Shown in pieces: positions 6,485-62,533 of a DNA stretch of 64,000 nucleotides. Where the stretch lies: positions 62,001 to 126,000 of the forward strand of contig SVOY01000005.1 in NCBI GenBank assembly GCA_015066105.1, given 5' to 3'. The translations under genes were made by a program, and so were the position numbers. Below the pieces are notes generated by a model. It was given only the letters and a program-made list of their open reading frames with translations. It was not told the origin of the DNA and made no database searches. Source of the DNA: Oscillospiraceae bacterium (GTDB taxonomy: Bacteria > Bacillota > Clostridia > Oscillospirales > Acutalibacteraceae). How positions within the stretch are numbered: the stretch's first letter is position 1; each line of letters starts with the position of its first letter.

Positions 6485-6523
6485 GCAGGGAATTTTAGGA
6501 AGCGACGCCCCGTAGTTCCGATT

Positions 6524-6621
6524 GACTCCTTCCGTCAAAATCTTTAATTCTGCCACCTTTCTCAAAGAGGGAGGCTGCCTTCCTCCCCGAGGAAGGGGGA
6601 CCGCTTGCGGTGGAAGGAGTC
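6524..6621. repeat. Intergenic palindromic repeat of about 98 bp (GACTCCTTCC ends)
   Basis: The gap from 6420 to 6758 holds no gene. Its core is bounded by GACTCCTTCC (6524-6533) and the reverse complement GGAAGGAGTC (6612-6621). Inside are nested imperfect inverted repeats, including TGCCACC with CTCAAAGAGGGAGG and CCTTCCTCCCCGAGGAAGG. From memory, this resembles abundant intergenic repeats of gut Ruminococcaceae/Faecalibacterium genomes. A GCCGCCGCTTCGGCGGC hairpin (6628-6644), a low-complexity ATAA-rich stretch and an AAGGGTCGCTTCGC motif (6687-6700) follow. Confidence 0.65.
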
Positions 6622-6718
6622 AGTAGCGCCGCCGCTTCGGCGGCTAAGATAAAAGATAATGGATAATAAATAATAGATAACAGTAAAGGGTCGCTTCGCT
6701 CCGATTGAGCAGTAAGGA

Positions 6719-6758: not shown

Positions 6759-8567
6759 TTATTTAACTTTTACGCTCTTGACAGCACTCCAGGAGGAGTA
6801 AACCGTGCCGCTCGATGTTTTCTTATAGGCTCTTACCTTGAAGTAGTAGGTTTTGCCGCTTTTAAGCTTTGTTTTTGAGCCTGCAAGCTTGTTTGCCTCA
6901 TAGGATTTGACCTTTTTGTAGGTACCATTCTTGCTTGTTGAATAGTAAAGCTGATAACCGCTCTCTCCCGCTACATTGTTCCACTTGATTACAGCCTTAC
7001 CCTTTGTTTTTGAGTAAATATCTGTAACCGAGGGAGCCTTGGGCTTGATTGTGAAGCTCAGCTTTTTTGTGCCGCTGTATTTGCCCTTGAAAGTAACCGT
7101 TACTGTGTACTTGCCGGGGTTCTTTCTGCCGCTTGCGTATTTAACGGTATAGTCGGTGTCCTTTTTAAGGGTGTTGCCCTTGCTGTCCTTAACAACTACA
7201 GTTGGTGCTTTTGTTTTGCCGTTGTAGGTGTAGGTTGAGGTGGAAAGCTTGACCGACTTGGGATAATAAATTGTTTTGCTTGATTTCACATCACCGCAGA
7301 CGGTGCATTTTGTTACCTGCTTGCCGTTTTTCTTAAGGGTTGCTTTTGTTGTGGTGGTTTTGTAGGTGTGGGATTTTTTCTCAATCGTCTTCTGTGCTAC
7401 CGTAACTTTTCCGCAAACCGAGCATATTTTACCCTCAGTTAAACCAACATTATTACAATCAGATGTTTTTCCCTCTAAAGTTTTTTCTATATGTTTGCAA
7501 ATGTAATTATAATTTATATTCGCGTTAGTTATACACTCATTATAACTTGGCGTTATGTATATTTCATCCCACTGCTCTTTACTGCCACTATAATTAACAA
7601 CTGAAAGGTTTTCACATAATATAAATGCGCACTCACTTATACTCTTAATACTATCCGGTATAAATATCTCCTTTAGAGAACTGCAAATATGAAAAGTATG
7701 TTCATTTATGTATTTAACTCCATGCGGAATTATAATTTTTTCAATAGAATCACAAAAAGCAAATGCATATGCACCTATACTTTTTACGGTAATAGGTATG
7801 TTAACATCCACTAATTTGTTGCATAATCTAAATAATTCACTTGGAATTGCTTCTAACTCTTCAGGAAGTTTAATTCTTTTAAGTTCGCTACAATAACTAA
7901 AAGCTGCATCATCTATAACTTCAACGCTATCTGGTATGTCGAGTTCTATAATATTGCAAACTGAAAAAGCCTCTTGTCCTATTCTTTTTAAATTTTTTGA
8001 TAAAGAAACTTCTTCTAAAAGAGATTCATAAAAAGCATATTTTTCAATTTCAGTAACACTATCAGGTATAACCGCTTTCTTTAAGCTTGTCCCCCAAAAT
8101 GCATACATCGGTATTTTTTTTAATCCATCGGGTAAATTTATGCTTTTAAGCATACTGCAATTAGAAAAAGCGTATTCTCCAATTTCTAAAACACTATTTG
8201 GAATATTTATTTCCAATAAATCTTCGCAATTTGAAAACGCTGATTTTCCAATTCGTTTTATCGTTTCTCCTTCTATTTCTACGAATTTTAACTCTTTTAA
8301 ATTCATAAAAGCAGAATCACCTATACTTGTTACACCTGATTTTATTACTACAGAATTTATATCAACATACTTATAATCAAAATAAGTATCATCCATATCT
8401 CCACTACCACTGATTATCAATTCTTTTGTTGCCGTATCATAGCTCCAATTGACATTTTCTCCGCACTTTCCTTTTTCAATAACCGCACTTCCCTCAGACG
8501 AAAAGCACACCACAGCCGTCATAATAACAGCCATTAACAAAAATAGTTTTTTAAATTTCTTTTTCAT
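6759..8567 (-). CDS. Secreted BspA-like leucine-rich-repeat protein with Fn3 domain (LRR module 1)
   Basis: 602 residues. Signal peptide at residues 1-28 (MKKKFKKLFLLMAVIMTAVV). About ten BspA/LRR_5-type repeats from roughly residue 70 to 345 show the pattern 'IPDSV..I...AF..C..L..V.LP'. A short Cys-pair segment (ICSVCGK, KCTVCGD) covers about 380-425, then comes a beta-sandwich segment (YNGKTKAPTVVVKD...). A C-terminal fibronectin type III-like domain (VIKWNNVAGESGYQLYYS) ends the protein. No LPxTG or other anchor is visible. Such proteins usually bind host or bacterial surfaces. The LRR half (about 7440-8567) is clearly more AT-rich than the Fn3 half, which suggests domain shuffling. AAGGAGAAATCGAAA precedes the ATG. 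It is divergent from a small Xre regulator with palindromic sites between them. Confidence 0.85.
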   Translation of the reverse strand: MKKKFKKLFLLMAVIMTAVVCFSSEGSAVIEKGKCGENVNWSYDTATKELIISGSGDMDDTYFDYKYVDINSVVIKSGVTSIGDSAFMNLKELKFVEIEGETIKRIGKSAFSNCEDLLEINIPNSVLEIGEYAFSNCSMLKSINLPDGLKKIPMYAFWGTSLKKAVIPDSVTEIEKYAFYESLLEEVSLSKNLKRIGQEAFSVCNIIELDIPDSVEVIDDAAFSYCSELKRIKLPEELEAIPSELFRLCNKLVDVNIPITVKSIGAYAFAFCDSIEKIIIPHGVKYINEHTFHICSSLKEIFIPDSIKSISECAFILCENLSVVNYSGSKEQWDEIYITPSYNECITNANINYNYICKHIEKTLEGKTSDCNNVGLTEGKICSVCGKVTVAQKTIEKKSHTYKTTTTKATLKKNGKQVTKCTVCGDVKSSKTIYYPKSVKLSTSTYTYNGKTKAPTVVVKDSKGNTLKKDTDYTVKYASGRKNPGKYTVTVTFKGKYSGTKKLSFTIKPKAPSVTDIYSKTKGKAVIKWNNVAGESGYQLYYSTSKNGTYKKVKSYEANKLAGSKTKLKSGKTYYFKVRAYKKTSSGTVYSSWSAVKSVKVK

Positions 8568-8637
8568 TTTCGATTTCTCCTTATGTTCTTTTTAGCAATG
8601 GCAGTTATATATCCCCTGTCATACGCCAGCAATATCA

Positions 8638-8682
8638 TTTTAGCGGAATTTCCGCTAAAAGTCAATAGCGCATTATCCGCTA
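8638..8682. promoter_or_regulatory. Palindromic operator pair between LRR gene 1 and its Xre regulator
   Basis: Site A (8638-8660) has perfect 11-base arms TTTTAGCGGAA and TTCCGCTAAAA around one T. Site B (8666-8682) is a weaker version, TAGCG-N7-CGCTA, and its right arm extends as CCGCTAAAA. Both lie in the 156-base divergent gap, the arrangement expected for an autoregulated Xre-family repressor. The regulator identity is inferred from position. Confidence 0.7.
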
Positions 8683-8723
8683 AAATATAATTTTAACAAC
8701 AATAATAAATATGGGGTGATTAT

Positions 8724-8942
8724 ATGCTTTACAGGAGAATACGCGACTTAAGAGAAGATAAAGACCTGACCCAAAAGCAAATGGGTGAAATTCTTTCCTG
8801 CAGTCAACGAGTTTACAGCAATTACGAACGCGGCGAGCTGGATATCCCCACAGAAATTCTTGTAAAATTAGCCGACTTCCACAATACCAGCACCGACTAC
8901 CTCTTAAACCGCACCGATAACATCAAGCCTTATAAAAACTGA
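8724..8942 (+). CDS. Small Xre/Cro-CI-family HTH regulator
   Basis: 72 residues, essentially one HTH_3 domain. RIRDLREDKDLTQKQMGEIL covers helices 1-2, CSQRVYSNYERGE the recognition helix, and LVKLADFHNTSTDYLLNRTD the final helices. A weak GGGGTGATTAT precedes the ATG. It is paralogous to the regulator at 62248-62454: RIRDLRED, DLTQKQ, YERG/YEKG, IP and the TDYLLNRTD/TDYILERTD end are shared, but the recognition helix differs. Both are divergent from LRR surface-protein genes. The likely role is to repress itself and/or the LRR gene through the palindromes at 8638-8682. Confidence 0.85.
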   Translation: MLYRRIRDLREDKDLTQKQMGEILSCSQRVYSNYERGELDIPTEILVKLADFHNTSTDYLLNRTDNIKPYKN

Positions 8943-59425: not shown

Positions 59426-60127
59426 ATGAGGCAGTTTACCACCCTGCTTTTTGATGCAGACGACACACTGCTTGATTTTCACAAGGATGAAAGGCAGGCA
59501 CTTATAAAAACTCTTGAGCACTATTCGGCACCCGTTACAGAGGAAAATATCAAAACTTACTCAGGCATCAATCTTGGAATGTGGCGTCAGCTTGAAAAAG
59601 GCGAAATCACCCGGTCAGAGTTAAAGGCCACCCGTTTCAAAAAATTCTTTGACGCTATCGGTTTTCACTGCAACGAGGAGCCCCTTGCCGTCAACGGTTA
59701 TTACCTTTCAATTTTAGCCGAGGGCGGAAACACCCTTGAGGGTGCAACATCAACGGTAAAACAGCTTAAGGAAATGGGCTACGAGCTTTATATAATCACA
59801 AACGGCATTGCCGCAACCCAGGCAAAAAGGCTTCAGAAAAGCGGCCTTTTACCTTATATAAATGAAGTGTTTGTCTCTGAGGCAATCGGCTGGCAAAAGC
59901 CCTGCAGAGAATACTTTGACGCCGTGCTTGAAAAAATCAATGAAAAGGACAAGAAAAAAATCCTTGTTATCGGCGACTCACTCACATCTGACATAAAGGG
60001 CGCAATGAACGCAGGCCTCCCCTGCTGCTGGATTAACCGCTACGGCAAGGAGCTGCCCGGGGAATACGAGGTTGATTTTGAGTTAAGCGATGTGAGAGAG
60101 GTGATTGGAGTAGTGAGGAGGAAGTAG
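59426..60127 (+). CDS. HAD hydrolase, YjjG-type nucleotidase
   Basis: 233 residues. HAD motifs: I LLFDADDTLLDF (the YjjG-type DADDTLLDF), II YIITNG, III KPCREYFDAVLEK, IV VIGDSLTSDIKGAMNAGLPC. The YjjG/YfnB group removes phosphate from noncanonical pyrimidine nucleotides such as dUMP or 5-halogenated forms ('house-cleaning'). Cytoplasmic, Mg-dependent. Monocistronic. Confidence 0.9.
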   Translation: MRQFTTLLFDADDTLLDFHKDERQALIKTLEHYSAPVTEENIKTYSGINLGMWRQLEKGEITRSELKATRFKKFFDAIGFHCNEEPLAVNGYYLSILAEGGNTLEGATSTVKQLKEMGYELYIITNGIAATQAKRLQKSGLLPYINEVFVSEAIGWQKPCREYFDAVLEKINEKDKKKILVIGDSLTSDIKGAMNAGLPCCWINRYGKELPGEYEVDFELSDVREVIGVVRRK

Positions 60128-60153
60128 GAAGTAGTAAGGAGGAAGGAGTAAGG

Positions 60154-60187
60154 AAACCGCCGTCGGAAATCCGACGGCGGTTTGTTT
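60154..60187. terminator. Terminator between HAD gene and LRR gene 2
   Basis: AAACCGCCGTCGGA (60154-60167) and TCCGACGGCGGTTT (60170-60183) around AA, then GTTTTT. Confidence 0.9.
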
Positions 60188-60202
60188 TTACAGGAAATTT
60201 AA

Positions 60203-62125
60203 TCAGCAATCACAAGCGAATGTGAGCGGTCCGCCAAAAAACTCCGTAAGAAGCTTGAATATTTTTACAATTATCTCGAAAACGGGATGCGAATGACAGA
60301 AGCAATTACACTTTATATTATCTCCCGTGTCATCCTCGGTTTCACCGCCCAAAATTACATAATAGCTGAAATGGTCGGTTTCGAATACTACGCTGTCACC
60401 TTCTCTTACAGCCTTCATATCGGTAAGAGTGCCGTCATCATTTATGCGAAGAACGGTAAAGTAGGTTACATCCGCACCGAGAGGAAGGCTTACCTTAACC
60501 GTACCGTCGGGCTGAACCTTGTTTCCGTTTTCATCGAGAAGGTTAATATCGTAAAGAGCAACTATATTGCCCTCAACGAGACCTCTGATATAAATATATT
60601 CGGTGCTTTCGGGATTTTCTATAAGCTTAACGGTAAACTTATTATCACCTTCGTTACCTTCAATATCTATAGTGTCATCGTCAGCCTCAAGCTCTTCCTC
60701 ATAGGTTTTTCCGCACTTACTGCAGGTTTTATATCTGACACCGTTTGCTTCGTCGGCTACCCATTCACCGAAGGAATGCTCACAGGCAGAGGCAGCATAC
60801 TTAATGCCGTTTTCTATAGCGTAGGCTTCTGCAGTGGAGCCTTCATTGCAGTAGATGGTGAGGATGTCGGAAATATAAACCTTACTTCCGAAAGGATCAA
60901 TACCTTCTTCTTCTAATTTGCGTTCCAACTGATTTTTTAAGCACTGTGCTTCAAATATCGCATTGTCATATTTTTTACTATCGTATTCATTACAACCTGA
61001 GCTTTCAATTTTAAGTACGGTTATTAAATACTCCTTCACCAAGGAAATCGCTTCTTCGCTGTATTCAAAGTTTACTAATCCTACATCGCCGGGTGAAAGT
61101 GACACATCATGAGAGCATACGGTTATTTCTTCAAGTGACCAACAACCGAAAAACGCTCCGATACCGATTTCGGTTATTGTTGAGGGAATATTAATGCTTT
61201 CAAGCGAACAGCAAATACCAAAAGCATTGCGACCGATGCTTTCAACACCTTTTTCAATAAACACATTTTCAAGATTGAAGCAAGTCGAAAAAGCATAATC
61301 ATTTACTTTTTTTACACTGCCGGGAATGGTAATGCTTTTTAGAGACAAATTATTTAAAAAAGCATGTTGTTCTATTTCCTTTACTGTGTCAGGTACGGTA
61401 AAAGTTTTATCTGAACTCATATACCTATAAAGCACGGTCTTATCCTTATTATAAATGTTTCCGTCGTCATCGGTGCTGTAATACGGACTATTCTCATCTA
61501 TATTGATTTCTTTTACAACCAGACCGTTAGCAGTAAGCTCTGTACCGCCTATAACACAGTTTTTCGGAATGTTAATGCTTGCATTACCGGCAATAACGTC
61601 ACCGATATTTAAAAGGCTTTCGGGAAGAACAATTTCTTCAACAAAGGAAAGTCCGCCATCTACACCATTGCCCTGCACAATATCATCAATCTGCGTAATT
61701 CCCTCTGAAAAAACTATTTTTTTGATTTTACCTGTTAAAGGATATCTGTGCTTGGTTTTTTCCCACTCTCTTACTTGCTCATATTCACCGATTTCTTCAT
61801 TGTAATCATATGATTCGGTTAATTTCATACAGTAATCGCACTCATCCGCATCAACTTCATACGGAAATTTACTGAACAAATGATCCGCATTGAAATTTCC
61901 CCAACCCGAAACGGTAAGCACTCCGTTTTCATCGAGAAACCAAGTGCCATCACCCTTTCCGGTCTCCTCTTCATCATCGGTATGTACCCAAGTACCGCCG
62001 TAGGTGCCGTTTCCGTAATCATAAAATTCTACGCCTGTGTACGCACCTGAGCTTACCACACTGAACACGCTCATAACCATAAGCACACTCAGAACAAGTG
62101 CCGTCAGCTTTTTAATCTTTTTCAT
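60203..62125 (-). CDS. Secreted BspA-like leucine-rich-repeat protein (LRR module 2)
   Basis: 640 residues from the ATG at 62125 (GGGGGAATATAAAA before it); a start at 62158 lies upstream of this site and inside an operator. Signal peptide KKIKKLTALVLSVLMVMSVF. LRR_5-type repeats span about residues 90-380 (TVKEIEQHAFLNNLSLKSIT; IPGSVKKVNDYAFSTCFNLE), then a Cys-pair segment (CEHSFGEW, KTCSKCGKTYEEE). A beta-sandwich (FTVKLIENPESTEYIYIRGL) follows. The C-terminus is unusual: KCNCFCHSHPVFEIIVKIFK, then LLTEFFGGPLTFACDC, combining CxCxCH and CxC clusters around a hydrophobic helix. A surface adhesin or binding protein is likely. Divergent Xre regulator at 62248. Confidence 0.85.
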   Translation of the reverse strand: MKKIKKLTALVLSVLMVMSVFSVVSSGAYTGVEFYDYGNGTYGGTWVHTDDEEETGKGDGTWFLDENGVLTVSGWGNFNADHLFSKFPYEVDADECDYCMKLTESYDYNEEIGEYEQVREWEKTKHRYPLTGKIKKIVFSEGITQIDDIVQGNGVDGGLSFVEEIVLPESLLNIGDVIAGNASINIPKNCVIGGTELTANGLVVKEINIDENSPYYSTDDDGNIYNKDKTVLYRYMSSDKTFTVPDTVKEIEQHAFLNNLSLKSITIPGSVKKVNDYAFSTCFNLENVFIEKGVESIGRNAFGICCSLESINIPSTITEIGIGAFFGCWSLEEITVCSHDVSLSPGDVGLVNFEYSEEAISLVKEYLITVLKIESSGCNEYDSKKYDNAIFEAQCLKNQLERKLEEEGIDPFGSKVYISDILTIYCNEGSTAEAYAIENGIKYAASACEHSFGEWVADEANGVRYKTCSKCGKTYEEELEADDDTIDIEGNEGDNKFTVKLIENPESTEYIYIRGLVEGNIVALYDINLLDENGNKVQPDGTVKVSLPLGADVTYFTVLRINDDGTLTDMKAVREGDSVVFETDHFSYYVILGGETEDDTGDNIKCNCFCHSHPVFEIIVKIFKLLTEFFGGPLTFACDC

Positions 62126-62149
62126 TTTTATATTCCCCCTAAAATATTT

Positions 62150-62224
62150 TATAACCAAACGGTTATACTATAAGGCATTATATCATATGATATTGTAAAA
62201 TGTCAATATAATCAAACGGTTATA
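62150..62224. promoter_or_regulatory. Two 18-bp operator boxes between LRR gene 2 and its Xre regulator
   Basis: Box A (62150-62167) is TATAACC-AAAC-GGTTATA with perfect 7-base arms. Box B (62207-62224) is TATAATC-AAAC-GGTTATA, identical in 17 of 18 bases, 57 bp downstream. Each lies near one of the two divergent starts. The boxes differ completely in sequence from the sites of module 1. Confidence 0.75.
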
Positions 62225-62247
62225 TTTATTTTTCAGGTGGTGATTTT

Positions 62248-62454
62248 GTGGGATATTACAAACGCATCCGTGACCTTCGTGAAGACAACGACCTTACACA
62301 AAAGCAGGTTGCAGATTATCTTAAAATGAAACAGCCCCAATATAACCGCTACGAAAAGGGCTACCGTGACATTCCCTCAGATGTTCTGATTGCGCTTGCA
62401 GATTTATACAACACCACTACTGATTATATATTAGAAAGAACAGATAAAAAATAA
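62248..62454 (+). CDS. Small Xre/Cro-CI-family HTH regulator
   Basis: 68 residues starting at GTG, preceded by CAGGTGGTG. A single HTH_3 domain: RIRDLREDNDLTQKQVADYL, MKQPQYNRYEKGY recognition helix, and LIALADLYNTTTDYILERTD. Close paralogue of the regulator at 8724-8942, but with a different recognition helix (MKQPQYNRY against CSQRVYSNY), matching the different operators. Probably represses itself and/or LRR gene 2 through the 18-bp boxes. Confidence 0.87.
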   Translation: MGYYKRIRDLREDNDLTQKQVADYLKMKQPQYNRYEKGYRDIPSDVLIALADLYNTTTDYILERTDKK

Positions 62455-62455
62455 T

Positions 62456-62488
62456 CCGCAGACCTTGCACAGAGGCTGCGGTTTATTT
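62456..62488 (+). terminator. Terminator of Xre regulator 2
   Basis: CCGCAGACC pairs with GGCTGCGG (one bulge) and is followed by TTTATTTTTTT. Confidence 0.75.
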
Positions 62489-62533
62489 TTTTCTGTCCGC
62501 CCGAATTTTTTCAAAAAAATTTTCAAAAACCTA

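Follow-up and report, generated by a model that had tools for sequence, protein, structure and literature searches.

A local autorepressor encoded divergently from its target is a familiar device. Among small Xre-type proteins, ImmR of the integrative and conjugative element ICEBs1 and the c2-type repressors of phages are element-specific immunity repressors, and CylR2 of Enterococcus faecalis is known as a single regulator, not as a diversified cassette family. The controller (C) proteins of restriction-modification systems fall into several motif classes within one family (PMC4321490). RptR, which represses a type I restriction-modification defence island, is described as small and conserved, and its target promoter contains repeats and a conserved palindrome (PMC12255303). 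Here we describe two related loci in a 64,000-nt stretch of an Oscillospiraceae bacterium genome (the window; assembly GCA_015066105.1, contig SVOY01000005.1, positions 62,001 to 126,000), at each of which a small Xre regulator gene is divergent from a gene encoding a leucine-rich repeat (LRR) protein. From comparison with related loci we propose, with a probability of roughly 0.77, that each such module is a self-contained repressor-cargo cassette with a private autorepressor. No report of such a cassette system was found among the open-access papers searched.

The first-pass annotation of the window had drawn attention to positions 6759-8942, where it placed an LRR gene divergent from a 72-residue single-domain Xre gene, and Pfam bears out both genes and their orientation. 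The cargo of this first module (6759-8567, minus strand) specifies a 602-aa BspA-like LRR_5 protein (PF13306, E = 9e-102) with a hydrophobic, signal-peptide-like N-terminus, and its regulator (8724-8942, plus strand) is a 72-aa single-domain Xre/HTH_3 protein (HTH_3 E = 2.2e-12) whose recognition helix comprises residues 28-36. Between the genes lies the perfect 11-1-11 palindrome at 8638-8660 that had been noted earlier, made up of a predicted 17-bp operator (TAGCGGAATTTCCGCTA, 8641-8657) plus flanks; the second site noted there is also a predicted 17-bp operator (TAGCGCATTATCCGCTA, 8666-8682), which shares the TAGCG-N7-CGCTA frame of the first and lies 25 bp from it. The first operator sits between the -35 (TTGACT, 8665-8660) and -10 (TAAAAT, 8642-8637) elements of the cargo promoter (8637-8665, minus strand; 10/12 in a consensus scan, spacer 17). 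The second abuts the cargo -35 on its upstream side and lies just upstream of the probable regulator -10 (TATAAT, 8686-8691, plus strand), which begins 3 nt past it, an offset that recurs across the genus. These two sites are the only exact matches to the pattern in the window; with two mismatches allowed matches occur at chance level (20 found, 20.4 expected), and so only the exact pair is meaningful. The whole 2.48-Mb assembly contains the exact pattern at three places, namely the window pair and one more, which on reading the sequence apparently sits inside an open frame.

As the first-pass annotation had also claimed, this architecture is repeated at 60203-62454 with a paralogous regulator (62248-62454, plus strand; 68 aa, Xre/HTH_3, HTH_3 E = 3e-15), 59% identical to that of module 1 over 63 residues. 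The cargo of module 2 (60203-62125, minus strand, with an ATG start preferred over the listed TTG at 62158) is likewise an LRR_5 protein (PF13306, E = 3.5e-26) with a signal-peptide-like start, and carries a CNCFCH...CDC tail; for both window cargos, whose PF13306 scores exceed the cut-off, surface display is predicted. Its promoter (TTGACA-18-TATAAT, 62177-62206, minus strand) matches the consensus at 12/12 positions and is flanked by two predicted operators, one downstream of the -10 (TATAACCAAACGGTTATA, 62150-62167) and one abutting the -35 on its upstream side (TATAATCAAACGGTTATA, 62207-62224). These palindromes lie 57 bp apart and are quite unlike the module 1 pair in sequence. At both loci the sites form matched pairs of near-identical palindromes, which the earlier annotation had not recognized. 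The module 2 pattern matches the window twice against 0.04 matches expected, a number that none of 100 shuffles reached, and its zero-mismatch matches in the genome occur only at module 2. Two further modules of the same genome, also new here, are a third on contig C16, with an LRR cargo and the pair TACACTATATCTGATGTA / TACACTAAATGTGGTGTA 25 bp apart, and a fourth on contig C8, whose divergent gene is secreted-looking and not LRR.

Regulators of this kind were found in 28 of the 34 genomes of the genus, our own included, at E ≤ 1e-8 (107 matches). The stretches fetched held 116 regulator-like frames, of which 112 (at most 120 aa, with at least 60 nt upstream) were scored for palindrome pairs; 106 regulators at E ≤ 1e-8 were used for the partner, palindrome-pair, place, cargo and coexistence counts, and 74 with a scored pair for the helix-operator comparison. 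Regulators also occur in at least 137 of 295 genomes sampled from the order (E ≤ 1e-15) and at least 47 of 398 sampled from the phylum (E ≤ 1e-12), with up to 20 and 14 candidates scored per genome, respectively. Named genomes yielded 297 relatives of the module 1 regulator. The best 80 of these 297, at 74-92% identity, are by title mostly Clostridia and Oscillospiraceae metagenome-assembled genomes, many of them of ruminant-gut origin; Lachnospiraceae, Erysipelotrichaceae, Paenibacillus and Fontibacillus are represented by some records each. At least one of them (L205) seems to be in the genus set as well.

Paired palindromes are a general property of these loci. A pair significant against dinucleotide shuffles (p ≤ 0.05) was present upstream of 76 of 106 genus regulators compared with 24 of 207 ordinary upstream regions, and pairs at the smallest reachable p were upstream of 59 and 7, respectively. 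Among significant pairs, a spacing of 24 or 25 bp was seen in 36 regulator regions and in no ordinary region. At 27 of 35 loci with this spacing the regulator-side operator is followed 0-2 nt later by the cargo -35, and at 18 of them a regulator -10 starts 2-3 nt beyond the opposite side of that operator. The site of module 1 recurs across Bacillota, with at most one mismatch, in 75 of the 80 loci of its regulator's relatives; 50 of these have at least two sites, 25 bp apart in 46. These positions support overlap of the sites with the cargo promoter. That they stay nearly constant on both promoters while the sequences vary speaks for repression of both the cargo and its regulator.

The sequence of the palindromes follows the recognition helix. 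Among protein pairs 50-70% identical outside the helix, operators resembled each other in 89% of the 70 pairs whose helices were alike, as opposed to 3% of 254 and 1% of 173 pairs whose helices were less so, and residue 29 largely sets one operator base (R with G, Q with C, N with T). The motifs that a fixed rule yields from the genus alone, scored at a threshold of 0.85, occurred beside the matching helix at 9/10, 11/11 and 9/11 loci of other genera (29/32 in total), and among these three testable classes never beside the wrong helix. A first version of this analysis, at the same threshold, was set aside, its motifs having been written by hand after both sets had been viewed; it gave 10/10, 8/11 and 9/11, with 3 matches in 46 other loci and 1/3 for the SQQVYSN class within the genus. 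The comparison backs the earlier suggestion that the regulator recognizes its own palindromes, and the claim that the repeated pairs differ in specificity is strongly supported.

From this geometry and correspondence we infer the following mode of action. Binding as a presumed dimer to two palindromes that lie on both divergent promoters, the small Xre protein would repress the strong cargo promoter as well as its own weaker one. Recognition helix and operators would have co-diverged into dozens of private specificities, which could let several cassettes share a cell without cross-talk. No sensor domain or inducer was found for the regulator and, given the lack of such a domain, several routes of cargo release may be considered: a low or fluctuating repressor level, some antirepressor, or entry into a cell that does not contain that repressor. 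The cargo itself is variable: in this genus it consists mostly of secreted or membrane proteins, LRR proteins forming one class. The cassettes would change both place and cargo.

With regard to cargo, 87 of 106 genus regulators had a divergent upstream neighbor, compared with 155 of 573 other genes of the same loci, and a crude hydrophobicity rule predicted a signal-peptide-like start in 54 of those 87 partners compared with 105 of the 573; open reading frames were called mechanically, and some partners may be spurious. LRR_5 was the commonest family (24 of the 87), followed by fn3 (7), with zinc ribbons, DUF4234 and others represented by a few each. A divergent frame within 250 nt was present at 51 of the 80 relatives of the module 1 regulator, and here the families were DUF6809 (7), zinc ribbons (4) and LRR_5 (3). 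DUF6809 (PF20648), a small family of unknown function that none of the open-access papers searched names, is divergent from the regulator in L204, L219, L226, L258 and L276. Several LRR and other cargos of the genus, including that at 60203-60320 of the window, end after a hydrophobic stretch in a Cys-rich tail (CNCFCHSHP...CDC or ...NPVCxCGxAHY), which is possibly an undescribed C-terminal signal.

Modules of one specificity are found at differing places and with differing cargo. For 188 same-specificity regulator pairs between congeners, a flanking gene was shared at ≥60% identity in 10, as compared over short fetched stretches, some ended by contig ends; for rough comparison, the gene that follows fur next to module 2 and looks rubrerythrin-like by eye was present in 18 of 21 fetched fur loci. 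Both cargos were known for 146 same-specificity pairs, and these were homologous in 14. The module 2 cargo has a homologue in L140, at 47% identity overall but near identity in the last ~190 residues, whose partner regulator belongs to class SQTMYAR, indicating that cargo and specificity can be re-paired. The stretch that carries module 2 (60118-62503) is absent between the HAD-hydrolase gene and fur in congener L183, and these two genes also adjoin one another with no module in L188, L189, L195 and L197. In L196 the same place is occupied by an LRR gene and a regulator of class SQTGYSK. Together, the module-free gaps and the different module in L196 favor insertion.

Across L183, L186, L192, L194, L196 and the window, the content of this gap upstream of fur varies: some congeners lack a module there, and others carry either unrelated secreted-looking genes or a different module of the Xre-LRR type. 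The gap looks like an insertion hot spot. Short repeat-like elements of the CTCCGTCAAAATC...CCACCT...GGGGAGG type appear alike by eye at the edge of module 1 (6510-6660) and in the module-free gap of L183 (~1270-1330), and might serve recombination.

We also asked how often regulators of one specificity occur together in a genome, counting exact identity at residues 27-33 after removal of repeated upstream regions. In the genus there were no such pairs against 8.6 expected (P = 0.0001). An order sample, consisting of 80 places from the phylum and order lists in genomes with at least two listed matches, gave 2 against 3.7 (P = 0.26), and both sets combined 2 against 9.7 (P = 0.003). Exclusion of same-specificity cassettes is therefore possible and finds support in the genus only, where single-copy descent predicts the same pattern. 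With a looser clustering of helices (8/9 residues), the genus had shown 3 within-genome pairs where 14.0 were expected and the order sample 13 where 11.1 were expected; this clustering was replaced because it merges SQRVYSN with SQQVYSN, whose operators differ. Moreover, 2 of those 13 pairs were one regulator counted twice from overlapping stretches (G462, G458), with the neighboring second regulator there left unscored.

What the first-pass annotation had proposed beyond the modules themselves was a surface-protein control system built on LRR genes. LRR_5 is indeed the commonest cargo family in the genus and is present in three of the four closest modules of our own genome, yet an LRR_5 match at E ≤ 0.001 is lacking in 63 of the 87 genus partners and in 48 of the 51 found beside regulator-1 relatives, and most regulator homologues do not lie beside LRR genes, an outcome that the annotation itself had named as telling against it. 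Our own genome, furthermore, has ten other LRR_5 places, seven over the cut-off, none near a detected regulator. The partner surveys led us to drop this reading: an LRR-specific switch with divergent regulators is highly improbable, and the surface bias is more a trait of this genus than of the whole family. Descent from phage immunity regions, whose leftover repressor would still silence a phage-borne gene, is also very unlikely. Phage and integrative-element repressors are among the nearest sequences and folds, and at E ≤ 1e-8 there are matches in 32 phage records, all but one of them at <60% identity; among the matches listed, identity reaches 62% for phage and 67% for plasmid records. Against this origin, a scan of viral_contigs gave 8 pattern matches, none confirmed as a relative of the module 1 regulator, and none of the 8 window proteins scanned with Pfam belongs to a phage family. 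Relatives ~43-67% identical lie on Monoglobus and Subdoligranulum records that are listed as plasmids and include both very large and very small ones; these may be mis-binned or truly mobile.

A further alternative is a controller-type timing switch, in which one site would serve the regulator for activation and the other for repression, in the manner of restriction-modification C proteins, giving a burst of cargo on entry followed by a set level. Cargo promoters close to consensus (12/12 at module 2) would hardly need activation, and in the 25-bp class the other operator sits between -35 and -10, making such a switch improbable. Modules could instead be ordinary local repressors inherited vertically, their scatter of place and cargo reflecting genome rearrangement and replacement of neighbors with no cassette mobility. 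The lack of any genus genome with two same-helix regulators is as expected for single-copy orthologues, and the sharing of a flanking gene by 10 of 188 same-specificity pairs also fits. Against this stand the module-free gaps between the HAD-hydrolase gene and fur, the different module at the same place, and the identity of regulator-1 relatives in records labelled Paenibacillus, Erysipelotrichaceae and Oscillospiraceae (74-92%), which is above that between the window paralogues (59%); we regard purely vertical descent as unlikely.

The private-autorepressor reading has its own difficulties, among them the shortness of the flanks compared. Thirty of the 106 genus regulators have no significant operator pair and 19 have no divergent upstream gene. 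Outside the genus the surface bias is weaker, with a signal-peptide-like start in 19 of 51 partners of regulator-1 relatives and DUF6809 (7/51) as the commonest family. Stray matches to the 14 motifs numbered 3 among the 32 loci of the three classes and 8 among the 46 loci belonging to other classes, 2 of these 8 being near variants of SQRVYSN that carry the SQRVYSN operator, and related loci are not independent, so that the permutation figures overstate certainty. With regard to mobility, the module 1 regulator was beside none of the 14 nagA loci examined (those at ≥54% identity, of 24 other nagA-like matches), but no clean empty site was seen: the lipase-like gene that lies upstream of nagA in G016 shares just 27% identity with that of the window. 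Movement of the cassettes is thus putative, and rearrangement of old loci may have occurred instead.

A broader and more tentative proposal, which we consider possible but doubtful, is that the modules are mobile cargo cassettes belonging to a common pool that spans the phylum, their mutual compatibility maintained by a diversified code of repressors and operators. Like phage immunity groups, cassettes of one specificity would exclude each other whereas those of different specificity would stack in one genome, giving each cell several genes, often for surface proteins, that are silenced independently and can be released singly. Moving and stacking, if real, would also account for the way in which uncultured gut Bacillota might maintain a reserve of unexpressed surface genes. 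In this large family of single-domain repressors, moreover, promoter geometry is nearly constant and helices can be matched to operators, making the family well suited to deciphering a helix-to-DNA code and to supplying orthogonal repressors.

In comparison with known systems, both window regulators score well above the gathering score of 23 for Xre/HTH_3 (PF01381; 47.2 and 56.4 bits), and the RstR family (NF041951), though their best NCBIfam match, gives 49.5 and 47.0 bits against a cut-off of 80. The structure comparison does not settle kinship beyond the common fold. ImmR and the c2-type repressors (7t8i, 2r1j) are among the best sequence and structure matches, from which our regulators differ in comprising only one domain, of 68-72 aa, and in having one divergent cargo gene. 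CylR2 (1utx), a 66-residue repressor that controls cytolysin expression, has the same fold. RptR is associated with one cargo type and a 6-bp palindrome, in contrast to the many specificities and cargos here. Controller proteins such as C.Csp231I, C.AhdI and C.Esp1396I share the small Xre fold and paired palindromic operators at the regulator's own promoter. Their sites overlap or are 15 bp long with an 18-bp gap, whereas the commonest layout here is 17-bp sites 25 bp apart, centre to centre, and the cargo here is divergent and variable, with no restriction or methylation gene among the Pfam neighbors scanned in the window (LRR_5, amidohydrolase, alpha/beta hydrolase, HAD hydrolase and Fur). 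Membership among either the controller proteins or the immunity repressors is not established, with no restriction or phage family among the 8 window proteins scanned and scores below the RstR cut-off; by analogy, the modules would work like restriction-modification controller proteins and the immunity repressors of mobile elements.
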